Shown here: positions 8,521 to 56,576 of the stretch, piece by piece
How positions within the stretch are numbered: the first letter of the stretch is position 1
How the letters are laid out: every line of letters starts with the position of its first letter
Source: Microbulbifer sp. VAAF005
GTDB lineage: Bacteria; Pseudomonadota; Gammaproteobacteria; Pseudomonadales; Cellvibrionaceae
Reading direction: 5' to 3'
Assembly (NCBI RefSeq): GCF_030012985.1
Contig: NZ_CP120233.1
Span: 868,001-932,000 of the forward strand
DNA: 64,000 nucleotides
The notes under the pieces: model-generated
Told to the model about the DNA's origin: nothing
Database searches by the model: none
Seen by the model: the letters and a program-made list of their open reading frames with translations, nothing else
Made by a program: the position numbers and the translations under genes

Positions 8521-8813
8521 CTAGGGTTCTTTCAAGAGGCTGGAAAATTCCTCTGAAGCCATAACGGGTACAAACTCAGTGATCGTAAAAGTCGACGCCC
8601 CATGTTTTGTGAAAGGGTCTTCTTCCAGGACCTTTCGCAGCACTTCCTCAGAGGGATGACGTGAAATAATTATCGCGCCAGTTCTAGGCTCTTTCGCCCC
8701 CCAAAAAGCAGGTCTCCCGATTTATAGTGTCCCTCCAGGTAGCTCACATGCTCCGCCATTAACTCTGGGGTCAGTTTTTTAATATCCGGGAAATTCAAGT
8801 TCACTAAAAACAT
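8521..8813 (-). pseudogene. YCII-domain protein, interrupted by one frameshift
   Basis: The first frame from ATG 8813 (GGGAG upstream) gives MFLVNLNF and then HVSYLEGHYKSGDLLF. The rest of a normal YCII protein continues in another frame as WGAKEPRTGAIIISRHPSEE, followed by a stretch ending at the stop 8521-8523. The switch falls at an A5/C6 homopolymer (8697-8707), and one extra base restores a 97-residue protein. YCII proteins are small dimeric ferredoxin-like folds with a His-Asp pair and mostly unknown function. Either the gene is broken or a base has been missed. A second, more decayed copy lies at 11040-11168. Confidence 0.75.
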
Positions 8814-8889
8814 AACGTCTCCCCCTCCTTAGGGGCTATATATCAACTCTTTACACCACTTTAAGCTTGCAGAAATAGCCTCCACCAAT

Positions 8890-9153
8890 CTAATAGATAG
8901 CAAATCTTTCCACCTTGGCGATAGAGGATGATCCCAAGTAGTAGCTTAAATGGAAACCATCGGAGATTGATGATCGGGCATCATTTAATTTAATGGTCCC
9001 ATCACGTACCTTTCTTTAGGCAATAGTGCTAAATAGACGATACTTCAGATTAATCAAGTTACATGCGGCCTGAAGAGCTTCATCTGCCCTCCAGGCTATG
9101 GTATCCCCCTCAAAACGTATGGGGATTATTGCGATGGCACTCCCTCTTTGTGC
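8890..9153 (-). pseudogene. Decayed reading frame, unassigned
   Basis: One frame stays open for 88 codons except for a single TAA. It reads like protein (segments such as IPIRFEGDTIAWRADEALQ and KLNDARSSISDGFHLSYY) with no usable start or ribosome binding site. I do not recognise the family. It lies between the broken YCII and HxlR genes, in a stretch that looks like a decayed duplicated block. Confidence 0.3.
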
Positions 9154-9198
9154 TCACTCTTAAAACTGTTAATGCGAACTCATCTTTAGAAGATGTAA

Positions 9199-9507
9199 AA
9201 ACTGTTCAGAGGCTCGACTAGCGGTATAGCCATTATGGCTGTATTCGATCTGCTCGGGCGAAAATGAAATATGAGAATACTGTGGGAACTGAGGAACACA
9301 GCCCGGAGCTTCAGGGAGCTCCAAGCCCAGTGTGATGCCATGTCCCCTTCGGTACTAAATACAAGAATCAAACAGTTGAGCGAAGCTAAATTGATTAATA
9401 AGTGTACGAATGGATATCAACTGACAGATCTGGGAGTTTCGTTAATGGAGACCCTTGATCCGCTGAGGGAATGGGCTAATAACTGGGAGGAATCCTTCAA
9501 GGCCTAA
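9199..9507 (+). pseudogene. HxlR-type winged-helix regulator with in-frame TGA
   Basis: The frame reads SGIAIMAVFDLLGRK, then TGA at 9265-9267, then NMRILWELRNTARSFRELQ and a complete wHTH domain ending EESFKA. In HxlR proteins the position of the TGA is a nearly invariant Trp (the GKW motif), so this looks like a TGG-to-TGA nonsense change. A TAA shortly upstream (9196-9198) suggests the N-terminus is also lost. Restart at ATG 9271 would delete the first helix and has no ribosome binding site. It was probably once the regulator of a neighbouring YCII- or Spo0M-type gene. Confidence 0.7.
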
Positions 9508-9589
9508 TAGACACTCTGTAAAAGCCAAAACCCAAGAGCCTTGCAGCCTAGATGCCGCTGGGTTCTTGGATGCAGGCCAACTATCGCGA

Positions 9590-9771
9590 CAAAATGGACT
9601 GAACCGATGGGGCAGTCTCATTATCACTCGCATCATGCGCTAGCGAAAACGAATAATATTAATCGCCGCGCAAATCAAATCTACGAATAATTCTGTCAAA
9701 CAATGCACCTGCTAACCATCAAGGGTAAAGGAGGGGTCAATCTCTTTAGAAATCACCAAACCACTGCTCTT
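9590..9771 (-). pseudogene. Remnant of a second Spo0M gene (3' end)
   Basis: About 180 bases match the 3' end of the intact Spo0M gene (11443-11625) at roughly four bases in five, including the shared string CATTATCACTCGCATCATGC. The frame is broken by several substitutions and stops, and the upstream two thirds of the gene are absent. It is a relic of a duplication. Confidence 0.75.
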
Positions 9772-9920
9772 AAGGGCACCCTTATGAGTTACCTTTTTGT
9801 GCCCGTAAGTAGCGAGTCATGGGGATTGCAGGGAGATAAATTGAGAGAAATGTGATTTTCAGAAGTTTCCTTAACCCAAAAACAGCTATGCGCTGCATCC
9901 CCTACTTTTGATTGTTAAGG

Positions 9921-10331
9921 TCACATTTCTGGCATTTTTTCAAATTTTTGTAATTCCGGGTCCATATAGTCCCAAGATGCACCACTACCAGCATATACCA
10001 CCATTGTCGGGTTGGATTGCTCCAGGTCATGAAGACTTCCAGCGCGGATAAATTCAAACTGCGGCATACCGCTATTTTCCGCATAAATATGCGAACCGCA
10101 GCGAGGGCAAAAACCTCTCCTTACTGTATTGCCGCTATCTGTCTGCTTCTCATGAAATGCAAGATCGCCACTAATGGTTAAGCTTCCGCGAGGAATAGCA
10201 ATGTTAGCGATGTGTCCAGCCCCACTAATTTTCTGACAATCTGTACATTGGCAATGACCCGCCATTACCGGCTCTTCAGAGCAAGAATAACTAATATAAC
10301 CGCACAGGCATTCTCCAGATATTTTGGACAT
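9921..10331 (-). CDS. GFA-family (glutathione-dependent formaldehyde-activating-like) zinc protein
   Basis: A 136-residue CENP-V/GFA fold protein. Zinc ligands are visible as CLCG (about 8-11), CQCTDC (about 27-32) and CPRCG (about 75-79), the family set. Members bind zinc and sometimes glutathione adducts; most have no known substrate. ATG 10331 has AGGGGA at the right spacing. It is divergent from an intact HxlR regulator with a long inverted repeat between, so it is the likely target of that regulator, perhaps responding to reactive carbonyls. Cytosolic, with no signal peptide. Confidence 0.9.
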   Translation of the reverse strand: MSKISGECLCGYISYSCSEEPVMAGHCQCTDCQKISGAGHIANIAIPRGSLTISGDLAFHEKQTDSGNTVRRGFCPRCGSHIYAENSGMPQFEFIRAGSLHDLEQSNPTMVVYAGSGASWDYMDPELQKFEKMPEM

Positions 10332-10342
10332 AAATTTCCCCT

Positions 10343-10402
10343 GTTACTTACGAAGTTGAAGTAACCTTAGCCTAAATCAATAACTTCAACTTCGCAAGTA
10401 AC
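10343..10402. promoter_or_regulatory. HxlR operator between the GFA gene and hxlR
   Basis: A 20-bp inverted repeat with one mismatch (10343-10362 and 10383-10402), built around GTTACTT and AAGTTGAAGT blocks. Each arm is itself partly palindromic (GTTACTT at 10343 and AAGTAAC at 10359). On the plus strand TTCAAC (10385-10390), a 17-base spacer and TAGTAT (10408-10413) form a plausible promoter that overlaps the right arm. Confidence 0.7.
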
Positions 10403-10441
10403 TAGGCTAGTATTTCATTTTCTGGCAGTAAGAGTGTGAGC

Positions 10442-10801: not shown

Positions 10802-11039
10802 CCCCTTGATTCAGGGCCAGAAGCGTAACAATACCGCAAACCCGAGACAGACAATTTGGAGATAACAACAACTTTTATGCATTTATACTTCGTAATTGCA
10901 TAATTGTATTTTCCATAAATAACCAGAGGTTCATGATGTTGACTCTGATTGTTATGTTTCTCCCCCCAATCTCATTAAGAAATCCTCCTAGATCACTAAC
11001 GAACCTGGCGGCAATTGTTTTAAGAGTATACTGTTTTAA
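10802..11039. other. Intergenic, nothing recognised
   Basis: No gene or clear signal seen. Base composition is AT-rich and there is no strong hairpin. It separates hxlR from the second YCII relic. Confidence 0.4.
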
Positions 11040-11168
11040 CTGGAACACTTTCGCTTCCCAAAAAGCAAATCCCCCGATTTATAGTGTCCCTCCAGGTGGC
11101 TCACATGTTACACCATGAGCTCTGGGGTCAGTTTTCAAAACCTGGGAGGTTTAAATTCACTATAAACA
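11040..11168 (-). pseudogene. Relic of a second YCII gene (5' part)
   Basis: The 129 bases repeat the first half of the YCII gene at 8690-8813, including the shared CACATG and TATAGTGTCCCTCCAGGT blocks, with several stops and a frameshift. Similarity ends at the homopolymer where the first copy is broken. Together with the Spo0M relic it shows that a YCII-Spo0M block once existed twice. Confidence 0.7.
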
Positions 11169-11188
11169 TAGTGGACAAGGCCGGATTC

Positions 11189-13224: not shown

Positions 13225-13353
13225 CTTGCCTTTCAATTAACGATTATATGGCAAGCAAATCCACAAATAATCCTACCTTAGAATCTAAACTGTTATTCGT
13301 TCATTAACTACCCCTTACCAATCTTGCTTCCCACAAAATCCTCGGAGTTAACA

Positions 13354-14921
13354 GTGAGCAATAGAGAGCATATTTCCTTTCTAGAACCCATAAAAAATCC
13401 GCCCGCTTACTCAATGGACAAAGAGAATAGAAAGCTGCAGATAAAACTGGATGTACAATATGAGAAGAATAACATTTTCAGTTTTTACAAAACCCATGAC
13501 ACACCAACCTGGACCCGTGTATTTTCATCATCAATCACTCAAGAAGCAGGTTTCACACTGACAGGCCCTACCATTGAACTTCGCGCTGATAGCCACCTTA
13601 CTATCCAGACAAACAACCTGCTGCCAGAGGAAGCCCCCTCAATACACCCGCTACAATAAACTTCCCCCATGAGTTCAATACCTACAACTTGCATACTCAC
13701 GGGCTCCACGTCTCCCCAGAATCTCCGGCCGACAATGTCTGCATGAAGATCAAACCAGGGGAAAGTTATACCTACGAATATGACATCCCCAAGGACCAAC
13801 CCCCAGGACTCTACTGGTACCACCCCCATAAGCACGGCTCTGTCGCTATACAAGTCGGCAGCGGGATGGCAGGTGCCCTAATCGTAAGGGATGAATTTGA
13901 TGATGAACTTGAGGCAATGGGAGTTAAGGAACATATTCTTGTCTTCCAGAATATTGCCGTAGATGAGCACGGAAAAGTAGAGGATCAACACCAGGTCGCT
14001 AAGTTCCCAGATAGTGAATACTGTATAACCGTTAACGGACAATACTGCCCTATCATTCATGCAACGGTGGGTGAGCTTCTCAATCTGAGACTTCTCAATG
14101 CTACCACTCGCACATCGATAGACATCGATTGCCCTTGGTTCGCGCAAATGTACATCTACGGGTTTGATGGAAACCCTACTGATGACTACCGCCTACAAGA
14201 CGGAGTAAGCCTGGGCCCCGCTAATCGAGCCTCCCTTTTCTTAAAAATCAGTGAAGCCGCCACTCCGGGAGCTCATTTTTACATTTACAATAATGCGATT
14301 GAGTTCCAACAAATGCCGCATTATAAGTACCATAACAACAGTCCACTTTTTGTTATCGCTATTGCCCAGGGAGAGGAAATCGGAACGGCAATCTATGCTC
14401 CCAGCAAACCACCCGCTCGATGTGCGCCCCCACCCTTCCCCAGCAGTTTTAAAGTGGACTTACTGAAACCTATTACAGATGATGAGATCACCAATACACG
14501 TCGACTCACTTTCCAGGCCAACACGCTTGATGACCCCCAAAAATATTATCGCGGGCTGAATGTCAGTATTGACCATTCACCATTCGAAGGATGTGAAGTG
14601 GTTAATCATTACGTAGAACTTGATGCAGTAGAGGAGTGGACCTTGGTTAATGAAAGTGAATTCCCCCACCCAATCCATATTCATGTTAATCCGTATTATG
14701 TTATCGAGGTGGTTGGAGAAGACCCCATGCACCACACACTCAAACTACCGTTTTGGTGCGACACCTTTCAAGTACCGCCCCATGGACATGTCAAATTCCG
14801 TACTCGTTTCAAGGATTTTACCGGGAAGTATCCTCTGCATTGCCACTTACTTTATCATGAGGATGGGGGCATGATGCAGCATGTTAGGGTTGTCAAAGAT
14901 ACCTCTGAGATTCCAAAATAG
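13354..14921 (+). pseudogene. Multicopper oxidase, interrupted by one frameshift
   Basis: The first frame starts at GTG 13354 (GGAG seven bases upstream) and runs to a stop near 13659. The rest of the protein continues in another frame as FPHEFNTYNLHTHGLHVSPE. One added C at the C5 run (13634-13638) fuses them into about 522 residues. All four copper motifs are present: HTHGLH, WYHPHKHGS, HPIHIHVNP and HCHLLYHEDGGMM, giving the T1, T2 and T3 sites with Met as the T1 axial ligand. No signal peptide or Tat motif is visible at the N-terminus, unusual for a copper oxidase. Family members oxidise phenols, metals or bilirubin-like compounds. A missed base is as likely as a real lesion. Confidence 0.85.
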
Positions 14922-26336: not shown

Positions 26337-26502
26337 TTATCACCTCAACTACGCTGCTGTATCATATTGCGGCAAAATTCTAACCTCTCAGGCATCAGCG
26401 GTCGCCCCATTTTCAACATCGTTTACAGCGGCTTTGACATCCTGCGCACCTCGGGCACAATTCCCGGCATTTTCAGCAAATACCAACGGAGTATTCCCAG
26501 CC

Positions 26503-38253: not shown

Positions 38254-40022
38254 TTAACCCTGCTTCTTTTCTTCGATAAAGTCCCTTACCTGCTCACTTA
38301 GTACGGCCATAGGGACATTGCCATTTCTCAGAATGATTTCATGGAAGTCCTTAATATCGAAGTCTTCACCAAGTTCATTTTGCATCAGTTCTCGCAAGGC
38401 GAAAATCTCAAGTGCACCAGAATCATAAGAGGTAAGCTGGGCCGGCATAACCGCCATTCGGTCCATCAGAGTTCTCGGGCCTTTAGCAAATGAAGCTCCA
38501 GAATCCTGCAAAAACTCCGCAACCTTTTCATCACTCCAACCGAGTACATGCATTGCGGTGTCCGCTACCATACCTCGCGCAGGCCATGCTCTCCTTAGGA
38601 TCTTGGTTGACCCATACTGATACATTCCCGCTTCCTCCGCTAGATGTTCAGAGTACCTACCCCAACCTTCAGCAAAAGCAGAGTTAGACAAAGCATCTTC
38701 TATTTTGTGAAACTTTTCTTGCTCTTGTACGAGAGCAATTTGCATATGATGGCCCGGGTACCCTTCGTGGATAGTAACCTTCTCTGCAGAAGCGTAAGAC
38801 TCATCCTTGTAAGTTGTCGGATCATATCCAAATCTCGCCTTGCGCTCCTTGGTGCCCGGAATATAGTGTGCGCTGCGACCTGAGCCCTGTTCATGCTCAG
38901 GGATAGCTTTTACTTCCATTTCGATCAAAGGCATTTCATGGAAGAAATCAACGGTTAAATCTCTAGACTTATCTACCAGGCGCTCATAAAACTGATGCAT
39001 CTCATCAGCGCTATTAAATTTCTGAGTTTTATCCTCACTGGCCCTTGCCACTGCCTGAGAATAGGAATCTACTTGATAGAACTCCTTGCCTAAGCGAACC
39101 ACTTCGCTCTTGTTTGAGTTGACAGCCCTTAAACCCAACTCAAAAACTTCTTCTGGTGTTCTCTGCAAAGTCGTATAAGAACGATACTGAGCCATATAAC
39201 ATTCACGGCCATTAGGAATCGCATGGATACCAAGCTCGGCTCTGGCTTCAGGTAAATAGGCAGACTCTAGAAAATTCTTGTAATTCTCCATTGAGGGGAT
39301 AACGTGATCTGAAAGCACCTGTTTAAATGCAGCAGCAAACTCAGGGTCCCCAGCTTTCTTCACTAACCCCAAGAACGGGTGCTCATCGATAGGTACTTGG
39401 GTCAAGCCATCAACTTGCTGAATGACTCGCTTAACCACACTCTGAGGTGCGGAGTAACCTTGCTCTAACCCCCGGCGGAGATTGGCTATTTCTTGCTCAT
39501 AGTAACGAGCCGCGTCAAGCCAACGTTCAATCGCATCTGCCTTTTCTTGGGCTGTTTCAACCGGCTGAACCTCGGTCAAAAAGCCAAGAATGATATGAGG
39601 CCCAAACATATGATCAACAGACCAGAGTTCAGTCTTACACACCCTTAGGCCAACATTGGACTCTAATCGCTCTTTCAGTTTGAAGTAGAATACCTTCTCT
39701 TGATCACTTTTTAGACCATCAAGATCTATCTCTGCCAATTTATTGAGTATTCTGTCCTCAGATGCCGCTAGAGAGGCAGCGTTACTGGGGGAATTACTTA
39801 AAAAAGGTTGTGCCTGTCCAGCTCCATATCTGAGAAGTAAGCGTACGGCTGGAAGTTTTCTAAATAAGCTTCGGCATATTGATCCGCTAGATCATGGAGT
39901 AGTGCCGAGTTGTCAATAGCTTCCCTACCGGCCACATCAGTTTGGTTATCAGTAACTGAGCATCCCATTAGGACCGATGAAACTACCAATACACCTAAAC
40001 CCGCTCTTTTTACATTAATCAT
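38254..40022 (-). pseudogene. DUF885 lipoprotein peptidase, interrupted by one frameshift
   Basis: The N-terminal part (40022 to about 39798) reads MINVKRAGLGVLVVSSVLMG with a lipobox Cys and ends MELDRHNLF plus stop. The rest, read in the next frame, continues LSNSPSNAASLAASEDRIL into a full DUF885 domain. The break is an A6 run (39800-39805 on the plus strand), and one more base gives about 589 residues. The DUF885 zinc motif HEGYPGHHMQ is present (HExxxGHH type). These proteins are predicted peptidases anchored to the outer membrane. Next to it is the dehalogenase-like lipoprotein on the same strand, 350 bases away. Confidence 0.82.
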
Positions 40023-42190: not shown

Positions 42191-42584
42191 AATATAAACC
42201 TTCCTTTTACATTAAATAGAAATTCCTTTAACTGGAGAGGATATTCATATCACCATCAGAGCATCCACCTATGACAGAATTGTGCGGATGGTGAAAATCT
42301 CCGCACGACCAGAACTATTGGAAGTTTTATCATTAATTAAACAGGGAAAACCCTATAAAAAAGCACATGACTAACTTCCGCCAATTTAAGAACCTGAGAT
42401 ACATAAACTTATGCTTAGATACTTAAAAATTTGCTTTCAATCGAGAATGTTTTGTATGAACGGTGCATATTTCAAGCTCAATGGAGCAAATGGCAAGTTT
42501 CTTTCATATGAGATTACCTATATCATTCACTGTTGATATTCTGATATATAAAATCGATATTGAATGTAACATAGGCAAGAAACC
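42191..42584. other. Divergent promoter region for the lipoprotein and the sensor kinase
   Basis: About 390 AT-rich bases. No gene. LytTR regulators bind paired direct repeats of about nine bases, but I cannot point to a convincing pair by eye. Confidence 0.4.
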
Positions 42585-43637
42585 TTGTTTGAATTTCGCA
42601 AAATAAATAAGATCCAAGCATGGATATTTCTTCTAATATGGCCATGGGTGAATATCTTTATCGTCTCTGCTACACTTTATTCACTTGAGTCACTAACCCC
42701 CCACCTCTTCCTGTTGGCTACAGCTAAAATATGGGGAACGTTTATTTTATGTCACCTTCTTTTCATTTTTATTGAAAATCTTCCCAACAGCCCTCTACGA
42801 TTGTTAAAAGAAAAACACACCTACTTACTTAGACCAATTGTAGTCATTTTTCTATTTATAAGCATTGCACCGATCGTAGAACCCCCATTAACTTTCAAAG
42901 TGCCTGATATTAAAATATTACCATTGGCGATAATGCTACTTGAATCCACAGTTTATATTTTTGCCATATATATATTTCAACAGCAAAGTTTCTTCTATCG
43001 CTCGCAGCTTCATGCGCAACAGGCAGAGCTACAAATACTTAAAATGCAATCAAATCCTCACTTTCTATTTAACACTCTAAATTTGATTGCATCAGAAGTC
43101 ATTCAGCACCCATCAAAAGCTAAAGAGCTCATTTACAGCCTATCCGATTTATTGCGCGACACAATCAACTTAACCAAAACCCAATGGATAACTATTGAGG
43201 AAGAACTAAGATTAATCGAGTTATACCTCTTGCTGCAGCAAAAGCGCTTTGAGGATCGATTCACCTTTGATATTGACTGCCCACAAAATTTGAATGGAAT
43301 GAATATACCTTCATTACTATTAATGCCAGCTGTGGAAAATGCCATAAAGTACGGTATTGCACCCTACGCTAAAAGTGGGCATGTGAGTGTAAATGTGGAA
43401 CTAAATAATAGCTACATAGAAGTGGAAGTTCAGGATACAGGGGCATGCTTTGATGACAAGAACATCACTTATGGTGAAGGATTACGTATTCTAACTCAAA
43501 CATTAAGAGTCAACTTCAGTGACAACCACGCCCTTAAGCTAAATTCAAGCGGTGAAGGAGCAAGTTTGAAAATTCGCTTCCCACAAGTAAATTCATCCAT
43601 AACCCCGCAGGTTGAAAATGCCGAAAATGAATACTAA
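42585..43637 (+). CDS. LytS/YehU-type sensor histidine kinase
   Basis: A 350-residue histidine kinase of the LytS class. Four to five hydrophobic segments at about 12-155 form the membrane input domain, without a known ligand domain. The phosphoacceptor is His in MQSNPHFLFNTLNLIA (about 169-184, the His_kinase domain). The ATPase domain carries LLMPAVENAIKYGI (N box) and GEGLRILTQTL. TTG at 42585 is the only start that gives the membrane part. The next gene overlaps the 3' end by 20 bases and is its response regulator. A sensor for envelope stress or a peptide is likely by family; the stimulus is unknown. Confidence 0.88.
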   Translation: MFEFRKINKIQAWIFLLIWPWVNIFIVSATLYSLESLTPHLFLLATAKIWGTFILCHLLFIFIENLPNSPLRLLKEKHTYLLRPIVVIFLFISIAPIVEPPLTFKVPDIKILPLAIMLLESTVYIFAIYIFQQQSFFYRSQLHAQQAELQILKMQSNPHFLFNTLNLIASEVIQHPSKAKELIYSLSDLLRDTINLTKTQWITIEEELRLIELYLLLQQKRFEDRFTFDIDCPQNLNGMNIPSLLLMPAVENAIKYGIAPYAKSGHVSVNVELNNSYIEVEVQDTGACFDDKNITYGEGLRILTQTLRVNFSDNHALKLNSSGEGASLKIRFPQVNSSITPQVENAENEY

Positions 43638-44394
43638 AAAAGTAATTATTGTCGATGACGAACCTGCAGCAAGATCCAATCTAATAGAAGTAATCAACAC
43701 CTTCGATGAATTGAAAGTTGTGGCGCAAGTAACTGATGGAAAGTCAGCAATAAAGCAGATCATAACCAAAAGCCCTGATATCGTATTCCTTGACATTGAA
43801 ATGCCAGAGGTGAATGGCTTTGATGTGGCCAATGCAACTCAACATATAAACTATCAACTTGTCTTCCTAACAGCCTATCAGCACTATGCCCTGCGTGCGT
43901 TCGACACAAATGCAATTGACTATTTGACAAAGCCTGCTCATCCAGAATTAATAAAGAAAAGCATTCGCAAGATATTACGGCAAGAGATGTATGCCTTAGG
44001 GCAACAGACGTCTTCAACAAGCGGAAACCGATTGGTTTTGAGTGATTACAATCAAATGAAGATATTTGAATATGACCAAATTAACTATATCGACAGTATC
44101 GGTCGTTATCGTCGCATCCACCTTACCGAGACAGGAGTTAAATCTCACAATACAAATACCATTATTTCAGATATGACACTTGACAGTTTCAGTGAGCAGC
44201 TACCTAAGGAAACTTTTTACCGATTACATCGAAGCTACATCATTAACAGCCATAGAATCCTTGAATTAAAGTTACAGTCACGACGCCATTTTGTCCGGCT
44301 CTCCGGAACAGATACACTTATCCCAGTATCTCGCAGTTTTCTATCCATCTTAAAGGAGAGTATTAAAGTCTCAGCTAGCTCTCTAATTGGGTAA
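43618..44394 (+). CDS. LytTR-family response regulator
   Basis: A 258-residue response regulator. The receiver domain (about 1-120) shows IIVDDEPAARSNLIEVI with the acidic pair, the phospho-Asp in IVFLDIEMPEVNGFD and Lys in YLTKPAHPE. The C-terminal LytTR domain (about 150-250) includes YIDSIGRYRRIHL, TFYRLHRSYIINSHRI, and the end PVSRSFLSILKESI. ATG 43618 has GCAGG upstream; a second Met (43627) is possible. Coupled to the kinase. It likely regulates the divergent dehalogenase-like lipoprotein, or genes elsewhere. Confidence 0.9.
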   Translation: MPKMNTKKVIIVDDEPAARSNLIEVINTFDELKVVAQVTDGKSAIKQIITKSPDIVFLDIEMPEVNGFDVANATQHINYQLVFLTAYQHYALRAFDTNAIDYLTKPAHPELIKKSIRKILRQEMYALGQQTSSTSGNRLVLSDYNQMKIFEYDQINYIDSIGRYRRIHLTETGVKSHNTNTIISDMTLDSFSEQLPKETFYRLHRSYIINSHRILELKLQSRRHFVRLSGTDTLIPVSRSFLSILKESIKVSASSLIG

Positions 44395-44462
44395 TAGATG
44401 GCTCTAAGTAATCCCGCAAATACAGCTATGAAATTACTCCGAGCCTCCATAATCCCAGAAAC

Positions 44463-44905
44463 CTACATGTTCTTTTTAAGGAAGCTGATGATCGACCCAA
44501 AAATAGCTCTATGGTGCTCACTATCCGTAGGACCATGAGCCATATCTGGATATAGTTTTCACTCATAGTCCTTATCAAACTTACTTAACATCATATTCAT
44601 GCGGTACATATGTTCACCATCAACAGTTTCATCCTTCTCACCATGAATAATAAATACAGGCCTTTGAAGGTTTTGTGCCAGATATACCGGTGAAATATTC
44701 TTCAGAGTGCTACTGTTCTTAACAGTATCTCCAACATTCTCCAGAAACCACTTACTTTAAGCCTCAGTTGCACAGGGTGAGTTCAGGTCGAGATTAATAC
44801 CTGTGACACCGCCACACTGACTGTACAGCGGAACAACTACTGATGCTTGATAGCCTACATTTGTGTATAATATCCGCCATAACTCATTCCGACTGAACAA
44901 CTTTT
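44463..44905 (-). pseudogene. Remnant of a prolyl-oligopeptidase (S9) family protein
   Basis: The C-terminal part of an S9 peptidase in decay. The Ser elbow GMSYGGYYTQM (about 44860-44895) is followed by a TAG, then LFRCTVSVA in the same frame. After a one-base shift GINLDLNSPCATEA, a TAA, and then SPVYLAQNLQRPVFIIHGEK and YPDMAHG appear with another TGA before KLYPD. The Asp and His of the triad remain. At least three stops and one frameshift show genuine decay and not just one missed base. Confidence 0.75.
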
Positions 44906-45012
44906 CGAAGAAAAAGTATTGCTTCGGTTACTTACCTCCTTTGCTGCTTGAAATATATTCAAGTATTAAGTTGCCGAAAAGCTGAATAATTGTCAGCCAA
45001 TAACCAAGCCCA

Positions 45013-46094
45013 TCAAAAACTGAACCAATTTCCTTCCGCATGAAAATACAGCTCATCTTCCGCAGACTCACCCGAGAACGCCCTCTGAAAAAATTTGTGT
45101 ACCTTGGCATTTTTCTTCACCGACGAATTGGCAAAATAGGAATGTGAGTCCTTAACCCAAGGTGCGTTAGTGAAGTTGATATAGTGAGCGTTTCTAGAAT
45201 TTAAATTCCTCAGAGAGTGCCCAAGTCGTGCAAGTTGTTCATAGCCAGATTTAATTCTTGACACTCCGAGCGCACGATCATTTTCGTTAATAGTGATAAA
45301 ACAACGTTTCCGAAACGCAATACGGTCAACCCACAAACTATGATCAAAGTTATTAGTATCAGCTGCTGCCAATATTACATTGTCAAATATCAACCCACCG
45401 CCCTCTGTGATTGTGCTCTTCAGCATTTGCTTATAAAGATAATTCCCCATACTGTGAAATAAAGCATTCACAGTAAAAGGGCACTCCTTCTTCAGCAACT
45501 TACTGAAAAGCATTTCCTTTCTCTCCGGATTATCTGGATATTTTTCAGAAGCCGCTTTATAAAGTTCACTTCTCCGTGATTCTGTAATGAGGCGCAAGTA
45601 CTCATGAAATGTATGCAGCGTACGTTCCAGTGCGCAAGTTGATGCTTTTGCGTCACGTTTATCTGATTTATAACTTATAGTTCCGATTATACCTCCACCA
45701 TTTGCGGGCCAAGAAAATACTATTACAATCACACCGTATTGTTTTTCTATTTTTTTAGCTCGATCTACAATATCGCCCATATCATTGTTATACCCATGCA
45801 CAAAAAAAGTATATGGGATTTTTTCTCACGTGCTTCTTCTGCAATTTCACAAGCAACTTTCAAACTGACATAGTGATTTTCTTTTGCATCAAGGGGCAAT
45901 TTATATTTATTGATGAGTAGCTTTGCTTCATCCCGAGTTAAATCATCTGCCAAAAACTCTACGTTCCAACCTCTTTTCTTTTTAGTTATTTTCGCTATCC
46001 GCAACTCATTAGGACCTTTTTGATTGACGCTTTTACCAAACTGGTTTAAACCCTTCTTTCTCGCAAGCACTTCACGATTGGTGATAACATACAT
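45013..46094 (-). pseudogene. Alpha/beta hydrolase of the DUF900 kind, interrupted by one frameshift
   Basis: ATG 46094 has AGGAG upstream and leads to KKSHIL, then the frame is lost at the A7 run (45802-45808 on the plus strand). The next frame continues directly as FFVHGYNNDMGDIVDRAKKI, the oxyanion strand of an alpha/beta hydrolase. One extra T in the transcript gives about 360 residues. The nucleophile elbow is ALFHSMGNYL (Ser about residue 210), with His probably near the C-terminus. No signal peptide. Resembles DUF900-type hydrolases, which have no known substrate. It sits at the left end of the AT-rich island. Confidence 0.75.
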
Positions 46095-47080
46095 GCTCTG
46101 CTCCTTTGTCAAGGTGAATCAGATAGATCTTTATATAATAGCTTGCCTGTACTCCCTTGAGGCTCTCTTGATTATTAATTGATTCAGTCAAAACGCCTTA
46201 TACATCAAACTTGCTTTTATCAAACTGCTTTTCCGTTCGCACAATTTAACCTTCCGCTTATTCATGGCAGTTGCAGAATAACTTTATCTCGATATAGATG
46301 ACAGCGTACACTAAAGCTAATACAACCGACAGCCAAGTATTACTTGTATAATATGAGGCACTAATGCTCTATACTTTGCTTATCTTCAATATAGGAGGAT
46401 GGGTTAATCAAACTGTCTATCTAAGCTGGAAATATCAAATTTTAAAAGACTTACTGTGTACGCCACTTACAGCAAAGATTAACTATTGATGGGTTTTGAA
46501 CCTGCCATTACCCACGCCGAAGGAAGGGACTTCGACGTCAACAGAAGCGTAACTATTAATTTTCTAGGAACTAAAGAGTATGCTGGAGAAGGCGCTCAAG
46601 CTTAACCGGGGAAGAATTAGTACGATTAATTTTATCTGCCCTACAACGCAGACACGTCTCATCAGCCTTAAAGATCTGTGTCCTACTAGAATACTTAGAT
46701 ATTTAATAGGGAATTGTATGACTTTACGACTCAGAGGTTAGAGCCTCATCTCAGGCAGTTTCATAATAGAGGCTGAATAAGCCTATATTTTATTCAACTT
46801 TACCAGGATCCATAAAACGGTCTTTGTGTGGCTTCTCGATACCTCACAATCAAAACTGTTTCGACAAACTACCACTAGAGGGCTTCTGAGCTATCCCGAC
46901 GGGTGAGTTTGTGGACCACCGCTAATTCATTGGCATCCCAAAAACAGCACAAATGACTATCAGGAACACGGCAATCCACAGCCTGGTAATCTGGACCCCG
47001 ATCGAGATCCCCAAAATCGATTAGGAGTCCGACAAGGCCGCTTAAAACTAGATTAGTCTAGTTTTATTAGCTTACGACGC
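46095..47080. other. Long AT-rich gap with gene fragments
   Basis: Nearly 1 kb without a complete gene. Two protein-like open stretches are seen: on the plus strand ATG 46488-46604 (PAITHAEGRDFDVNRSV, then a stop) and on the minus strand about 46879-47054 (LIDFGDLDRGPDYQAVDC and FWDANELAVVHKL). Neither has a good ribosome binding site or known family, so they may be relics. No transposase is identified. Confidence 0.4.
47044..47065. terminator. Hairpin terminator of the peptidoglycan-hydrolase gene
   Basis: Perfect 9-bp stem AAAACTAGA/TCTAGTTTT with a TTAG loop, about 16 bases after the stop of the minus-strand gene at 47081. The stem itself supplies the A and T tracts. Confidence 0.65.
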
Positions 47081-49147
47081 TCAACCCAAATGTTTCATAT
47101 AAAACTGTGCACGTGCGATAACATCATTTCCGTAATCATTACCGGTCGTACCGACATCCATACGTTTAATAGTCTGTACATTACTGACGCCCGAATTATA
47201 AGCTACGACAGCTCCCTTCAGAACATCTTTATCTTCCCACTCCGGGCGTTTTTCTTGAACTTGACGACGGAAGCGAACAAATATTTCTGTGGCTTGCTCA
47301 ATATGGTCAATACTATATGGTCCTCCTCGCGGGTTATGGTGTCGATTATCAACCTGCATAACACCCCACCCGTGTCCCTTATCACCGGTGCCATCTTTGT
47401 CCAGGACGTTGCCTGCACGGGACTCGCGACTGGCTAAAGCTGCCAGTAGCGCCGGAGGAACATCAAACTTATCCCCACAGGTACGAAACAGCTCACGAAG
47501 GTCAAGCACTCTTTCAAGGTCTGTTCGTGCCATTTTATGAGAAGACGCCACTCCAGAGGGTAGGTTATCTTGACGAGCGGTTCTAGCAGAAGCTCCCTTT
47601 GTGCTAGCTGCAGCCAGGGCTAAACTCCATCGATTATTTGTGTGCTTTGCAGCGCCATCATGTGTGACTTCACTGCCTGTACAGAGCTTGCTAAGTACGC
47701 CGTCTAAAGCTACTAGGGTAACAGCATCAGTTTCACCAGAGGGAGTTAGGCCCTGGTCAGCCTGAAAGTTCTTGATCGCCTCAGCAGTCTTAGGGCCATA
47801 AAATCCACGATATTCTTGATTTTCCCCTAGATCAACCTGATATTTGGGATTGATTGGGGTTAGTTGATTCAAAGCATCATGCAGGGCACCACAACCACCC
47901 ATGTAATCACCGGTAGGCTCAAGGATCAGCTTTCCTGTGACAACCAGCTTTAAGGTCGTGTCATATGAAAGCAACCTGTGATGGAGGCGCATATTGGACG
48001 GAAGCTGGTCAGCTTCACTTTCATCTATATCAGGCTCCGGGAGGTCAAAAAGATCTCGCAATGCCGCGTAGTCAATTTGCATGATACGGGCTTTTGGATG
48101 ATTTCGGAAAATATCAATACTGGTCTCTCGAATCGCGTCGCCATGTATTTTGTTATTACCAGAAGAACAGTGAATTACGCTTGTGGGCTCACCTCCCTTT
48201 ACTTCAGTAATAATCCCCATGTGCCCTTGCTTTCTGCCATGATCAGGGTACACATACAGGTCACCGGGTTGCGCCTGGGCTGAAGTGACTAAAGCAAATA
48301 AATCATCCCCAACTTCTCCTCCCCCTTCCCAGTAACTACTTGTTTGGAGCCACTTGGCGCTACCTGGCGGAAGCTCTCTAGGGACGCCAATCGACCAAGC
48401 CACAAAGCCGGAGCAATCACACTCTGCCACTAACGGATTTAGAGGATTTATGCCCCCTTTTCCCAATTTGTATCGGGTCTTTCTTTCAAGGCAACTCCGA
48501 GCTCGCTTGAGTGTAGTTTTCTGGCTGGCTGTTTTTAACAGTTCTTTCCAACCACTCAAATAACTTTCTTTATCCTTCTCCTTATCTGCTCCACCTGCAA
48601 TCTGTATTGCGCGCGCGATGATTTGAGGTATCTGTGAAATACGTCGATCCCCAGGGCATACCTTACCCCCAGCATTACTCCACTTTTCTCCTCCAGAAAT
48701 TCGCCCACTGTAATCGTAGCCGGACCAATTACCATCGATACCCTGACGGTGGTAAGCGATCCCCCGTGAGCCGGGTTTGCTGTTAGGGCATTCGACGAGC
48801 GGAATATCGTGGGTCTTATGCGCCCATACGCAGATCTTTGCGATGGCTTCGATCTGTTGCTCAGTAAACGCCGGAACAGCATGTCCATCATCAACGTTCC
48901 AGTCTCCGAAAGCAGGACCATGATCCTCATTTTCGACTGCAATAACTCGGTAGTTGCCACTTCGATTGGCTGCTGATCGGTAGTCAGTGTCACGGGATTG
49001 AATAATTGTGCCATCCGCCTTGGTAGAAAAGTGCGCAGCATGTGCAGGCGCAAATCCCACGATTGTATGCAAACAGACAATATCATGGCGAGTCATCGGG
49101 ACCTTGCCGTATTCGCGCTCCCGAATAGCACCCGGCATGCGTGCCAT
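47081..49147 (-). CDS. Multi-module peptidoglycan hydrolase (amidase, Cys peptidase-like, PG-binding, goose lysozyme)
   Basis: A 688-residue cell-wall hydrolase. Residues 1-180 are an N-acetylmuramoyl-L-alanine amidase (Amidase_2), zinc ligands His27, His133 and Cys164 (KVCPG). Residues 215-350 look like an NlpC/P60-type Cys peptidase: Cys in AECDCSGFVAW (about 245) and His in KQGHMGII (309). Residues 440-485 form a peptidoglycan-binding domain (GFYGPKTAEAIKNFQADQGL). Residues 545-688 are a goose-type lysozyme, Glu in ASRESRAG (575) and GWGVMQVD. There is no signal peptide, so export needs another route (phage-type lysis or a contact-dependent secretion system). Same-strand exported proteins flank it upstream. 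ATG 49147; GGAGGT lies upstream. Confidence 0.9.
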   Translation of the reverse strand: MARMPGAIREREYGKVPMTRHDIVCLHTIVGFAPAHAAHFSTKADGTIIQSRDTDYRSAANRSGNYRVIAVENEDHGPAFGDWNVDDGHAVPAFTEQQIEAIAKICVWAHKTHDIPLVECPNSKPGSRGIAYHRQGIDGNWSGYDYSGRISGGEKWSNAGGKVCPGDRRISQIPQIIARAIQIAGGADKEKDKESYLSGWKELLKTASQKTTLKRARSCLERKTRYKLGKGGINPLNPLVAECDCSGFVAWSIGVPRELPPGSAKWLQTSSYWEGGGEVGDDLFALVTSAQAQPGDLYVYPDHGRKQGHMGIITEVKGGEPTSVIHCSSGNNKIHGDAIRETSIDIFRNHPKARIMQIDYAALRDLFDLPEPDIDESEADQLPSNMRLHHRLLSYDTTLKLVVTGKLILEPTGDYMGGCGALHDALNQLTPINPKYQVDLGENQEYRGFYGPKTAEAIKNFQADQGLTPSGETDAVTLVALDGVLSKLCTGSEVTHDGAAKHTNNRWSLALAAASTKGASARTARQDNLPSGVASSHKMARTDLERVLDLRELFRTCGDKFDVPPALLAALASRESRAGNVLDKDGTGDKGHGWGVMQVDNRHHNPRGGPYSIDHIEQATEIFVRFRRQVQEKRPEWEDKDVLKGAVVAYNSGVSNVQTIKRMDVGTTGNDYGNDVIARAQFYMKHLG

Positions 49148-49594
49148 AATTTACCTCCAAAATATCGCTAAGTAACGAATAGAGCGGCCGCTAAAGCATT
49201 GATGGGAATAGAACCAGGCATTAGCGTAATTCGATGCCATGGTGATTTCAGTATCTGCGTGTATCAAACTTCACACTGTTCGCCTACCGGCAATCCAAGT
49301 AATGAGTCCATTCCAGTTTCTTATGGGTAGGAACCACACCATATTTAAAAGATAGCGATATAAATCCTATTGTCCAGGCGACAAAACCTCTTTACCAAGC
49401 AATTCCCGCTGAAAATCTTAGGCGGAAAAATCAGATAATATAACCCGATATATTTAACTGTGAGCGGCCCACAATTTACTATTTTACAGACAACTATTAC
49501 CCCGTATTCTTAGATGCGGCTGTAACTAAACAAATGAAATCGGCTCCATGACAGATTTTTTTATTTATCACCAAATCTCTTTAGACAAACTAAC
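49148..49594. other. Gap between the hydrolase and the repeat protein
   Basis: About 450 bases upstream of the hydrolase. No gene, repeat or attC-like pair that I can support. Promoter presumably here. Confidence 0.4.
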
Positions 49595-50865
49595 TCACAT
49601 CCTTTCCTTGGCCAAGTCATTAATACATGCAGGATTTGTACAGTTTCTACTTTCACTAGGAGATATCGTTAACATTTTATCGTAGCCCACCTCCTCTCCA
49701 CCTTTAAGCAACGCAAGTGTACTGCCATCTAAGATACCCGAGGTATTTTTCATACCAAACTCAGATTGAAAAGCTTTAACAGTCCTTTTACCATTGACAC
49801 TTAACACATATTCACTCTGCGATGGATCATAAACAATAAAATCCTTTAAATTGCCTTCCCTCCCCATTTTTTCTAACGCCAAAAAAATAGAATTAGGACA
49901 TTTTGCCTTAATATTTTCTTTGATGTTTCACCCCCTCTTTCAAGTCTGGCTAAAATTTCATTATATTCAAATGCTGCGGGACCAAATTCTTTGTCTTCAT
50001 ATAATTTATTTGCTCTTCTGACTAGCACACTCCTCCCCTCATTTACCGTATTAGAAAACAAATCACCACTCTTGTACTCTTCTGCAAGATCTAATACACA
50101 AGGAGATTGAAAGCAAGACCTATCGCTACTACTTTCCTCTAAATCTTTACGCTCACTTTCACTCCACAGAGTGTGGCTATTGAGCTTTCCGGAGATTTTC
50201 TTTAGAACATTTTTACCTATCACCCCAATTTTACCAGATAAGTCATTGTCTGCCTTATACTTCTCCACAATATATTCCCCATACTTTGTTAACACTAACC
50301 TTTTCTGCTTAGGGTCAAAAATAACGGCTTCCTCCACCTGATCATGGACTCCATATTTTGAGCCAGATACAGCCTTTAGAAACATTATCAAAACATTTTG
50401 CCTAGCCCGCAAAGCATTTTCTTCATCTCGATCACCGACTTTCACCGCAAACTCATTATAGGTAAGAGCAGCCTTCCCATATTCTTTATCATTGAAGTAT
50501 CTATTTGCCCTTATTTTCAGATTTCCAAGGGCCTCTTTAGAGGCAACGACTATAGTTGTTCCCTTTTCCCCTTCACAACTCGCCTCCTCATCTTTATACC
50601 TCCGAGGATGTGGATCAACTTTAATCTTTGTGCGAGGTATACACTTCTCTCCCGACAAAGATCCATCATCTCTAGTTGTAAGTTCCACCTCCTCTTTATC
50701 ACCATCATTTTTCCTTCTAGTTATAGTCACATCACTTTGAACCCCTTCTCGATCAGCGTCTTCAACTTGAATATCATGCTTACCTTTATCCTTACCCAGG
50801 GATAAACTTGAAAAGAGTATTAACACTACAAATATTCCCAACAAAAAATAGAACCTAAACTGCAT
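49595..50865 (-). pseudogene. Exported protein with two internal repeats, PG-binding-like, interrupted by one frameshift
   Basis: ATG 50865 (GAGGTAGGC upstream) starts a signal peptide (MQFRFYFLLGIFVVLILFSS). An acidic, Lys-rich segment follows, then a unit of about 150 residues repeated twice. Both carry RANRYFNDKEYGKAALTYNE-like and RQNVLIMFL-type helices, then CFQSPCVLDLAEE or CTNPACINDLAKE. The second has VNGKRTVKAFQSEFG, like PG_binding_1. The reading frame breaks at the A7 run (49881-49887 on the plus strand); one more base joins both halves (423 residues). Family not recognised. It lies upstream of the cell-wall hydrolase and is exported, so an immunity or accessory role is possible. 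Confidence 0.7.
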
Positions 50866-50920
50866 GCCTACCTCACAATACGATCAAATAGCCACCAATT
50901 AAAGCCAGAGGAATTAGTTT

Positions 50921-51689
50921 TCAACCATTGCCTTTTTCATTACCATTTTTAAAAAGCACAAACAAATAGAAAAATACTACAATGACAATGGCAATTAGAA
51001 AAAAATGATTATGCTCCCCTCATGAGTAATTAATCCTGTCTCCCAGTTTGGGGTCCTTAAATATATTGGCCCTGACGACTCCTTAACGGTCAACAACAAC
51101 TGATACGATGAGTCTTTCTTGTCTTTTGGAGCACTATTTGTTCTCACCTTAACGATATATTTCGCAGTCGGATTTAATGTTACTGTTGCAGACTCCCAGT
51201 AATCAACTGTGCAATACGAGACATTCTTTTCATTGAGATTAGTATGTTGGTCTGGCGCTTCCGTCCAGCTCTTAATGTCATACCCCCTCTAGACTTAATA
51301 ACAAACTTAACATCTTTAACCCAATTCACTTTAGAAATATTTGTTATTTGAAACTTATGAATAATGTCATCATCTTTGTTAGAGTGCTTCCTTATACCAT
51401 CAGATTTTGTTTTGTTATCATCACAGAAATCCCAAATCTTCTCTTTAGCGCCATCAGAATCATCGCGACCCTTTTTTTCTGGCCTGCAATCCTCTGTGTA
51501 AGTAATATTAGCGCCATAAGAGTCATCGCGACCTTCTTTTTCTGGCCTGCAATCCTCTGTGTACTCTGTGTATGTAATAATCGGTTGATTTAATGTTCTA
51601 CTTGCAAGATGATTTGCAGCCCAGCCAAATGAAGCTAAGACTATTAAAAACAAAAATGGGGCTTCTTTCTGTCGAATAATCCTAATCAT
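50921..51689 (-). pseudogene. Exported/double-anchored protein with a 21-residue tandem repeat, interrupted by two frameshifts
   Basis: ATG 51689 starts a membrane segment (PFLFLIVLASFGW), followed by the repeat NITYTEDCRPEKKGRDDSDG (two copies, from a 63-base DNA repeat). Frame loss occurs at a C5 run (51283-51287). The next frame is a beta-rich region ending in GPIYLRTPNWETGLITHEG. A second change at a C4 run (51016-51019) opens a hydrophobic C-terminal helix (FLIAIVIVVFFYLFVLF). With two added bases the product is 256 residues. No family recognised. It is the upstream neighbour of the repeat protein. Confidence 0.6.
51447..51572. repeat. 63-base tandem repeat (two copies) inside the exported protein gene
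   Basis: Units begin at 51447 and 51510 with GCGCCAT and share GCCTGCAATCCTCTGTGTA. The second copy diverges at its end. The repeat is in frame (21 residues) and encodes an acidic and basic, Cys-containing segment. Confidence 0.8.
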
Positions 51690-53146
51690 TAATTAAATCT
51701 ACCGTCAGAATCGATTTAGCTACATCTCCCTTAAATTCAGTTCAGATATCTCAACTCCGGAAACACTATATTTTGGCCAAACATCCTTCACTCATTTAAG
51801 TTAAGAATTTATTTCTTTCAACACCTGCCTTCTCGAAAAAAACAACAAATAAATAGACAACACTGAAATCTAAATAATGAAATTTATTGTAGCTAAAAAT
51901 AAGAAGACAGCCTTACTTAAATATATATGATAAGGTTTTTTTCACATAAAAGAATATTCGAAAAAATTCTTAACGTTAACGAATGAATTTCCGAAAATAT
52001 ATAAATGCGGGCACCCCAACCTTATTCTATCCAGAGCTCAACTGGCTCTTTCAAAGCCCTAGAAAACTCTCACAGTGCGGCTACAACTAAAGATCTTAAT
52101 TGAATGATTACTGCATCTAAAATCTCAATAAATAAAAATATAAATTTTAAGTGTTAAGCCCAAGCCCCAAACATTCAAGATGCTCTGCAACCTTTGCCCT
52201 AGTAGATCCTTCTATTATAGGAGACTTTTAAAACTCACGCTTTCTCAATTTCATTGCTCTACAACCTCCATGAATCAGCGCTATCTCACACAAAATTTAA
52301 TTTACAGGGTCGCTCTACAGTACATTTCAATACTAGATGACTCTCCATTCACATTCTGAGTCATACCTTTAGAAATAGCATACAGCTCTTGCTTTTTTAA
52401 TGTACAGAACTATTTTTTTTATGATATCCAATCAAAGAGGAATCGAAAGTACTCTGGGTATAAACTTCAAGTTCAGTTAAGATCAATATGAGTATGGTAC
52501 AAACGCTTATTGGCAAGTATTAGAATCGTACTATCTACCTCCTTATTAGACCTTAAATCGCCTACAGTCAACCTAAACTTTCAATACCGGAGGCTAGCAA
52601 TTACTTTTCTACCGGAAAATTCATATACTATAATTTTTCTGCTACTTACCCTTATGTTAATACGTTTGCCTAGCTGCCAACTGTGTACTCTCTATTACAC
52701 TAGCCACCCTTCATAGATGACAGAACCTTACGATATATCACTACTTCTAACTAAAGGTTCTTTGGCGATTCCTCCGAAGAATCATTTTTTAATTTCCCCC
52801 AAAGTCCCATCTACAGCACATATGCAATGGAATAACAAACTATTTTCACAAGTATATTTATATTCCATAAACCCTCAGCCAATCGAGAGTCTATCCCATT
52901 AAGCAGACACTCACTTTTTTGATAGGGAAAGTAAAAGTAAGAATTATAACCTCAACAAACCAGTTGAAGACAGGCTCACTTGTAATCCCAAAACTCAATT
53001 TCAACTTGGACACATCCATATTCAAGCTAATAAAGGATAAAACTTATCAATTATTGGCTCACCTACCTTCAACCTCCAAGCAGGCTTATCAACTACATAC
53101 TAAAATAAACGTATGTGTTTAAGTATTTCCATGTATATAAGCTAAT
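51690..53146. other. 1.45-kb AT-rich gap with possible decayed gene
   Basis: No complete gene found. On the plus strand 52510-53122 stays open in three successive pieces of 61-68 codons, two of them in one frame, more than expected in DNA this AT-rich. The pieces have weak matches to each other (LAIPPKNHF and LVIPKLNFN) but no start with a ribosome binding site. It could be a decayed gene. The rest shows no structure. Confidence 0.35.
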
Positions 53147-54238
53147 ATGGTGGGAGCTATGAAGTCAAAAAAGGGCAAAAACCAAGACAATAAGAAAACC
53201 TTATGCGCTTTACCTGAAGTGCCAATTAAAAAATTGAGCAAGAAAATTGGCAAACACAGAGAGTCACTCATACGCCTCAATGAGAAGAAATGGACAAACG
53301 GAACAGTACTTCACTACTATTTTTTTGAAAATCCAGCTTCATGGCGTGGTGACTCCACCCAAAAGGATGTTGTTCGCAAAGCTTTTTTAGAATGGAAAAA
53401 CCTGGGGATAGGATTGGATTTCTCTGAAGTTTTTTCGCCTGAAGAGGCAGAAATTCGCATTTCATTTGATTATAATCAAGGCTCATATTCTTATGTTGGA
53501 AGAGACAATATAAATATAGAAGAAGCTAAGGACCCCAAATTTAATACCATGAATTTTGGGTGGGATCTTACTGAAACACATGGATATGATACAGCCCTAC
53601 ATGAAATAGGACATGCCCTAGGGTTTTCACACGAACATCAAAACCCAATGTCTGGGATTGTGTGGAACAAGCAAGCCGTTCTTGAGTATTTTTCGGGGGA
53701 GCCTAACTATTGGGATGAAGAAGCAATTCATTATAACATTCTTAACAAGCTGTACACACATGAGGTTAGCGGTTCAAAATGGGATAAAGATTCTATTATG
53801 CACTATCCTTTTGATCCTGGACTAATATTAAAACCTAACAAGTACCAGAGAAAACCCCTTATCCCTGCTCCAGGTTTGTCACCTACAGATATTAAAGAAG
53901 CACTTCGTTTTTACCCGGCTTTAGACTCTAATTTGATAGAGTTGAAGCCTTGGGAATCTCATCGCATTAAAATACTTCCATGCGAACAATCGAACTTTTT
54001 AATTAAACCTGAATATAGCCGAGAATATACTATACAGACATTCGGGAATGCCGATACAGCATTAGTTTTATTTGAAAAAACAGGTGATGATTGCATTTAT
54101 TACAAAGGCGATGATGATAGCGGCACATCACTTAATGCTAAATTAAACGTACGTTTGGTACGTGGTCGCAGCTATGTATTGCGTGTAAGGTTAAATTATA
54201 TAGAAACATTAGGTGAAGCTGCATTGATGCTAACCTAG
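53147..54238 (+). CDS. Astacin/matrixin-like zinc metalloprotease
   Basis: A 363-residue protein with a metzincin zinc motif HEIGHALGFSHEHQNP (His152, His156, His162, Glu153) and a Met-turn DSIMHYPF (Met218, Tyr220), which fits the astacin family. The C-terminal 100 residues form a PPC-like beta domain (QTFGNADTALVLFEKTGDDC, with the DDDSGTSLNA loop). No signal peptide is seen: the N-terminus is Lys-rich (MKSKKGKNQDNKK), so export route is unknown or a non-classical one. Start at 53147 is tentative; ATG 53159 is an alternative. Base composition is AT-rich, as in the rest of the island. Confidence 0.8.
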   Translation: MVGAMKSKKGKNQDNKKTLCALPEVPIKKLSKKIGKHRESLIRLNEKKWTNGTVLHYYFFENPASWRGDSTQKDVVRKAFLEWKNLGIGLDFSEVFSPEEAEIRISFDYNQGSYSYVGRDNINIEEAKDPKFNTMNFGWDLTETHGYDTALHEIGHALGFSHEHQNPMSGIVWNKQAVLEYFSGEPNYWDEEAIHYNILNKLYTHEVSGSKWDKDSIMHYPFDPGLILKPNKYQRKPLIPAPGLSPTDIKEALRFYPALDSNLIELKPWESHRIKILPCEQSNFLIKPEYSREYTIQTFGNADTALVLFEKTGDDCIYYKGDDDSGTSLNAKLNVRLVRGRSYVLRVRLNYIETLGEAALMLT

Positions 54239-54710
54239 CTCGCCATTTATATTTTATTAGTGAGCCTTTCCCTATTCGGCCTTGCATACATATAAGCTAA
54301 TCCCAGCGAAAGAAAATTAATTTCAACCCATTTTTTGCAGCAGATCCCTACCCATGCTTCATAAAAGTGATAAATAATATGTTAATTAACGCAAAGCAGA
54401 CCCACCTGAAGAGGAAAAATATCTTATGAGGTATCTCAAGCCTAAAGTCATAAATAACTCATCACGATCCACACTAATAGTCACATTATCAAACACAAGA
54501 TCTGATCGCTCAATCTAACAGAAGAGCTCGGTAATATCTCTAGGGATGACAAGATAACGTATATATCGAGTGATACTTTCTAGCAATAAATGGGAGCTGC
54601 CTCAGGTGACGACATCGATACCTTTCTGAAAAAAATCTGCAAGCATTCAGCCACAAGTATAACAGATTTACATTATATAAATTGTATCTAAGTTCTGTAA
54701 TAGTTGCAGG
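54239..54710. other. Gap upstream of the integrase fragment
   Basis: No gene seen. If the fragment next to it came from an integron, the attI site would be expected here, but I find no clear match. Confidence 0.35.
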
Positions 54711-54878
54711 TCAATACTTCATACATTTCGCCATTCGTTTGCCACCAAACTTCTGCGTGCTGGTACTGATATACGCAATATCCAGGAACTACTCGGCCAC
54801 AACGATATCAGTACAACCATGATTTACACCCATGTTATAGGCGTACATGAGCGCGGTGTTACCAGCCCTCTTGACTAA
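54711..54878 (+). pseudogene. C-terminal fragment of an integron-type tyrosine recombinase (IntI-like)
   Basis: Reads [35 protein letters not shown], then ERGVTSPLD and TAA. It has the box-II His and Arg, the HxxR-type Arg, LLGH and the nucleophile Tyr of tyrosine recombinases. The end RGVTSPLD is characteristic of integron integrases, not of XerC/D. About 56 codons remain; the N-terminal part is missing with no frame continuing upstream, so the gene is truncated. The genes to its left lie on the minus strand, which is how an integron array would be oriented to this integrase, but no attC sites are recognised. Confidence 0.75.
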
Positions 54879-55014
54879 TTTCGGCCCCCGGCAGCTATGC
54901 CTTTGGGTGGTAGCTGGCTTTAGGCCAAGCCTTGTTGATTTCATCCACCTAAAATTTCACCTTAAAGAGTTCCCAGGTAATGCCAATAATGTCAGATCTG
55001 CGATAATTATATTG

Positions 55015-56576
55015 TTAATTACTACCACTCGCCCCAGCTTCCAGCTGCTTCTGTACCTTATCCAAATTAAAAGATCCGGGTACCTGGCTGGGTGGATATT
55101 CTTTCATAGTTTGCAAAAATTTTGATGCGAGCTGCTGCATAGGGACTAAAACAAAAGCACGATCAATAAACCAGTCGTTGTAGGTATTCGAGTTGTGTTG
55201 GGCTTTTTCAAAAGGATCTTGCCTCAAATTGAACAATAGTGGCACTCGTAATTCAGTAAAGGGCTCTCGCCAGACTTCAAAACCCCGCCCGCGATTTTCC
55301 AGGAAAATAGCCTTCCAGGGTTCGTAGCGCATAGCTACAATTTGGCCGTCATCATTTACGTAGATAAATTCTTTTCTTGGTGAAAGTTTTGCTTTGCCGG
55401 TGAAGTAATCCATCATGTTGTAGCCATCAACATAATTTCTGTACTCGCGACCATTGAGCTCGACCCCTTCCTTGAGCTGTTCCTTGATATTCGGGTTCCC
55501 CCGGCCGCAGCGAGAGTCGGCAGCCAGTCTTCATGGGAGACAATACCTGTCAGCGTAGTGCCCGCTGGAAATTTGCCCGGCCAGCGCACGAAAGCTGGCA
55601 CCCTATAAGCTCCTTCCCAATTGGAATTTTTCTCACTGCGAAATGGCGTAGTTGCAGCATCTGGCCAGGTATTGAAGTGGGGGCCGTTGTCTGTGGAATA
55701 AAACACGATGGTATTGTCGGTGATATCCAGGCGATCGAGCACACTTAGCAGCTTTCCTACCAGGATGTCATGCTCAACCATGCCATCCATATACTCATTG
55801 CTGTTGGGGCCCGCAAGGTTTGTGTGCTCCTCTCTGACATGAGTGCGAAAGTGCATCCGGGTGGCGTTCCACCAGACAAAGAATGGGGTCTTAGCCGCGT
55901 GTGCACGTTCGATAAAGTCGATAGCTGCCGCTAGGGTTTCATCATCGATGGTTTCCATCCGTTTCTTGGTAAGGGGGCCGGTATCTTCGATTGGTCCGCC
56001 GGCCTTGGCCTTAATCACTCCTCTGGGGCCAAACTTCTTGCGGAATTCAGGGTCTTTGGGATAGTCCCGGTTCTCAGGCTCTTCCTCCGCATTCAAGTGA
56101 TAGAGATTGCCAAAAAATTCATCAAAACCATGGTTGATGGGCAGGTGTTCGTCCCTATCCCCTTGGTGGTTTTTACCAAACTGGCCGGTGGCATAACCCA
56201 GGCTTTTCATTACTGTGGCGATAGTGGCATCACTCTTCTGCCAACCCTCTTTGGCACCTGGAAGCCCCACCTTAGTCATGCCGGTGCGCACTGGGACATT
56301 ACCCGCTAAAAACGCCGCGCGGCCTGCTGTGCACGATTGCTGGCCGTAGTAGTCGGTAAAAGAAAGGCCTTCTACCGCCAGCCGGTCAATATTGGGCGTG
56401 GTGTAGCCCATCATACCGCGACTGTTGAAGCTGATATTCCAGATGCCAATATCATCTCCCCAGATCACCAAAATATTGGGTTTGGTCTGTGCGAATAGGC
56501 TACCAGGGGAAAGGAATACAGCAGCCAGTACAACCAAAAGGAACTGTCGGAGACGGGATCGGGAGATCAGGAGCAT
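55015..56576 (-). pseudogene. Sulfatase with signal peptide, interrupted by one frameshift
   Basis: A type I sulfatase. ATG 56576 (GAGG upstream) begins a signal peptide (LRQFLLVVLAAVFLSPGSLF). The metal site begins NILVIWGDDIG and the formylglycine motif is CTAGR (in YGQQSCTAGRAAFLAG). Later blocks are YATGQFGKNHQGDR and YSTDNGPHFNTWPD. Reading is lost at a C5 run (55498-55502 on the plus strand); the next frame gives NPNIKEQLKEGVELNGREY and reaches the natural end. One extra base yields about 520 residues. Periplasmic. It may act on a sulfated polysaccharide or other sulfate ester. Neighbouring HAD gene is 43 bases upstream on the same strand. Confidence 0.85.

Follow-up and report, generated by a model that had tools for sequence, protein, structure and literature searches.

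The window, by which we mean the whole 64,000-base stretch of DNA analysed here, comprises bases 868,001-932,000 of the single 5,397,440-base contig of a Microbulbifer genome that is rated 100% complete. Seven genes in the window are each divided over two or three open reading frames (Table 1), and together these genes carry eight net losses of bases and no gains. An earlier note on this DNA had described seven genes broken by single-base losses, all in homopolymers and all in the same direction. The seven runs that it named are present where it placed them, and the net losses and the absence of gains hold for every gene, but the exported-protein gene accounts for two of the eight losses. The first of these lies at the C5 run at 51,283 proposed in the note, whereas the second falls at the A run at 50,999-51,005 rather than at the suggested C4 run at 51,016. 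The break lies at a run in six of the seven genes, the multicopper oxidase being the exception.

Table 1. Broken genes in the window, with window positions, strand, open reading frames, location of the break and Pfam matches.
Gene	Span	Strand	Open reading frames	Break	Pfam
YCII-domain gene	8524..8813	-	8697-8813, 8524-8697	run 8697-8707	PF03795 (weak, both pieces)
Multicopper oxidase	13243..14918	+	13243-13650, 13635-14918	about 13630-13650, not tied to a run	PF07731 and PF07732 (second piece)
DUF885 gene	38257..40022	-	39801-40022, 38257-39804	run 39800-39805	PF05960
DUF900 alpha/beta hydrolase	45016..46103	-	45789-46103, 45016-45810	run 45802-45808	PF05990
Repeat protein	49598..50826	-	two frames	run 49881-49887	
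Exported protein	50924..51689	-	51282-51689, 50998-51285, 50924-50998	51283-51287 and 50999-51005	
Sulfatase	55018..56603	-	55464-56603, 55018-55500	run 55498-55502	PF00884 and PF14707 (in the two pieces)

Four of these genes are open in relatives. The sulfatase corresponds to a 529-aa open frame in G010, the closest relative used, and its downstream piece is 100% identical at the protein level; the DUF885 gene corresponds to a 589-aa open frame in the same relative. The comparison with relatives at the same positions that the earlier note had proposed bears out its reading here, as the sulfatase run is one base longer in G010 and the DUF885 run is one base longer in both G010 and G003. Against a 556-aa open frame of G010, the multicopper oxidase shows a one-base deficit between about 13,630 and 13,650, which cannot be put on the C run because G010 has no matching C run there. 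Both pieces of the DUF900 hydrolase align to a single 322-aa frame of G007, their junction lying at 45,789-45,810; a search with the hydrolase piece in 47 other Microbulbifer genomes gave a match in G007 only.

For the remaining three genes, searching with the protein sequences yielded a single relative apiece, with lengths of 410 aa (repeat protein, P0001), 256 aa (exported protein, P0002) and 97 aa (YCII, P0003), all single-frame proteins that the window encodes in two, three and two frames, respectively. Over 95% of its length, the 330-aa piece of the repeat protein shows 100% identity to P0001, and the last 94 residues match P0001 exactly in the other frame, the frames joining at about 49,879-49,885. 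The three pieces of the exported protein are exact and together make up P0002. Both YCII pieces are exact to P0003 and join at 8697; the PF03795 match of each is below the cut-off, and the two cover consecutive parts of the profile. The pieces of the repeat and exported proteins had no match in the 47 other Microbulbifer genomes. The assemblies that hold P0001, P0002 and P0003 have longest contigs of 5,162,457, 5,162,457 and 5,364,442 bases, compared with 5,397,440 bases here. The three intact copies are known at the protein level only, and as they carry no source, they could in principle derive from a different assembly of this very strain.

Window positions 42,040-54,720, which have no alignment to G010 at its locus and contain three of the seven genes, are possibly an island; its other products include a LytTR response regulator, a matrixin/astacin-like peptidase and a protein with matches of the amidase, CHAP and peptidoglycan-binding types. 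At 10,955-11,146 there is another YCII-like stretch, which shares 48% identity with the broken gene, and a multihaem cytochrome with TPR repeats (57,775-60,036) adjoins the sulfatase region. On the plus strand of the window C runs outnumber G runs (58 C5 versus 15 G5, and six C6-C7 versus no G6), and the GC skew is negative at every 4-kb step. Relative to G010, one base is gained and one is lost 57 bases apart at 26,408-26,465, and the frame is restored.

Losses and gains were surveyed against G010, which is largely syntenic with the present genome in inverted orientation, over five blocks covering 444 kb of the present genome, including the window, of which 312 kb aligned; G010 is the only close relative in this survey, and the contexts of losses are those of the pairwise alignment. 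With G010 as the reference, 235 genes (86,574 codons) yielded 19 uncompensated interior losses and no convincing gain. A twentieth loss, at 844,361, was detected only with the present genome as the reference. Sixteen of the 20 losses remove one base and four remove two, and they are spread over 16 genes. These are the sulfatase, DUF885 and multicopper oxidase genes of the window, a YbbP-like permease with three losses, a NAPRTase with two losses 81 codons apart (kept in the count although the two sum to three), an RsgA-like GTPase with two losses ahead of the matched domain, and genes for an AraC-type regulator, an alpha/beta hydrolase, a lipase-like hydrolase, a LolD-like ABC ATPase, an AllG-like protein, a CHRD protein, two macro-domain proteins and two unnamed proteins.

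The G010-reference list held 30 genes, of which 15, with the 19 losses, were kept. Seven were dropped since indels close to each other in them add up to a multiple of three (a stop is also present in one, 1330402), and ORFs 112297, 126022, 159046 and 4304207 were dropped for a pN/pS of at least 0.59, two of them holding gains. Also removed were 4322776 (a lone gain near the start, with unconstrained codons upstream), 2188055 (77% identity and several losses), 124014 (GDPD, whose unconstrained N-terminal part contains stops) and 2179377 (a stop at codon 39). Lone gains in the survey numbered two, the first close to a start and the second within an ORF that lacks constraint. In the reverse direction, with 241 genes tested and 24 listed, no convincing G010-specific frameshift was found, the rest of that list being taken as mirrored losses of the present genome, compensated pairs, doubtful ORFs or start-proximal events. 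One G010 gene, at 851,870 in the present genome, has two in-frame stops, which is what natural decay looks like; the survey found no solid nonsense change in the genes of the present genome.

The direction of change differs between genes and the sequence outside them. Clean indels of one or two bases inside genes comprise 23 losses versus 7 gains, and all seven gains are doubtful as coding changes, being start-proximal, part of a compensated pair, in doubtful ORFs or, at 888,007, between ORFs of the present genome. Outside genes, the same class is balanced, with 22 losses versus 18 gains. The earlier note had named a mixture of gains and losses elsewhere in the genome as evidence that would count against it; the survey did not refute it, as genes show 20 interior losses with no convincing gain, while the indels outside them are balanced. 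In addition, codons past the breaks are as constrained as codons ahead of them, pN/pS being low on both sides (beyond the break in the sulfatase, pS is 0.164 and pN 0.003), and the relaxed constraint after a break that is expected of real pseudogenes is therefore not seen.

Taking the in-gene runs of G010 as the reference, the present genome is shorter in 9 of 545 runs of at least five bases versus none of the 8,169 that have three or four (Fisher p about 1e-11), and longer in no run; one or two of the nine shortened runs may not be among the 20 counted losses. With the runs of the present genome as the reference, G010 is shorter in one of 965 A/T runs of four. In several losses outside the window, the missing base stood next to G/C runs or between them, and the losses are thus not confined to runs of identical bases. 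The claim that all lie in homopolymers is therefore somewhat too sweeping.

In a family search, the long essential frames that were found were all open, and because this spoke against an error in the sequence, a wider E. coli panel was run. Among 138 E. coli K-12 proteins, 95 were matched within 846 kb, and 88 of these (29,588 aa) were counted as essential. Nine were flagged, and three of these are frame breaks: ftsW, lspA and ispU (uppS), the break in ftsW being judged by comparison with E. coli only. The other flags were rejected, for ispB since the stretch ends, for mlaF and mnmE owing to paralogs, for ftsK and lepB as partial matches in one frame, and for proS, which is still counted among the 88, as its frame is open. 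In 20 of 20 other genomes, uppS and lspA each have one match in one open frame, while only a split copy of each, and no second copy, was found in the present genome. In the comparison with G010, a single loss falls in uppS and two fall in lspA, located at G/C runs or next to them; gains at these loci fall only between genes or at the locus edge, outside ORFs. The essential genes carry four losses versus 6.8 expected, a shortfall that is not significant (P about 0.19). This is no evidence that essential genes are spared, and the sparing of essential single-copy genes that real pseudogenes would lead one to expect is not found. Lacking UppS, LspA and FtsW, a cell should not be viable. As the cell needs these genes, the fault lies in the record and not in the cell, and as the seven genes of the window share the signature of the losses in uppS, lspA and ftsW, the same reading would extend to them.

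The seven genes broken here are accessory ones, and the dependence on run length also fits slipped-strand mutation, so that a strain or culture, perhaps a mismatch-repair mutator, that truly carries recent deletions has some features in its favour. Such decay is nevertheless very improbable, given that it would have struck uppS, lspA and ftsW, that slippage would yield gains as well as losses and gains are absent, and that the survey found no solid nonsense change in the genes of the present genome, whereas one G010 gene has two in-frame stops. Phase-variable switches caught in the off state in the sequenced cells could likewise account for breaks in homopolymers within genes, but all are in the same minus state, the runs are short and housekeeping genes are included, which leaves hardly any room for this explanation.

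Short runs might also be real, with the frames rescued by transcriptional or ribosomal slippage, a rescue reported in insect endosymbionts, where it acts at poly(A) tracts. Many breaks do lie at runs of 5 to 7 bases, and the endosymbionts resemble the present case in having homopolymer frameshifts in conserved genes; here, however, the sites include G/C runs and non-run positions in a large genome, and identical proteins exist in a single frame elsewhere. In rescued genes every break would be expected on a slippery run, whereas several breaks here are at non-run sites that are unable to slip, and with three breaks in the permease and two in lspA the yields of successive slips would multiply. 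We therefore give rescue scarcely any credence. It is equally hard to believe that FtsW, UppS, LspA and hundreds of further proteins are produced in a free-living bacterium solely by transcriptional or ribosomal slippage at runs lacking one base.

The losses can be compared with known sequencing errors. In a nanopore assembly described in the Kastor paper (PMC12007338), homopolymer deletions dominate the indel errors and few fall at non-repeated bases. The long-read deletion errors described there for Pss508 are alike in being mostly false homopolymer deletions that frameshift genes, with a small share outside repeats. They differ in that A/T runs dominate and errors number in the thousands (PMC12007338), while the density here is far lower and G/C runs of five or six are struck at least as often per run. 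Homopolymer miscounts of older platforms such as 454 and Ion Torrent (PMC6742220) are similar in that miscounted runs produce false frameshifts, and differ in that some of the losses here are off runs.

Judged from the sequence, the seven apparent pseudogenes are almost certainly errors in the assembled sequence, and in the cell these genes are most likely unbroken. Either the reads or their consensus would count one base, and sometimes two, too few in runs of at least five identical bases, with an occasional base also lost next to G/C runs or between them. The cause, we infer, lies in the read technology or in polishing, and long reads or older pyrosequencing could each be the source. The earlier proposal of systematic under-calling with intact proteins is thus upheld by the one-way losses, the run-length dependence, the split uppS, lspA and ftsW, the constraint on both sides of the breaks and the intact identical proteins elsewhere. 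Scaling the 20 losses in 260 kb of codons by coding length, about 370 false frameshifts are expected genome-wide (Poisson range 224-567). With some 220-570 false frameshifts expected, a pseudogene count taken from this genome record would mislead, as would claims of gene absence or stories of decay. The combination of one-sided losses within genes, balanced intergenic indels, run-length dependence and broken single-copy essential genes is a signature that needs no reads and is usable to screen other deposited genomes. For this organism, its meaning is a warning about sequence quality and not biology.
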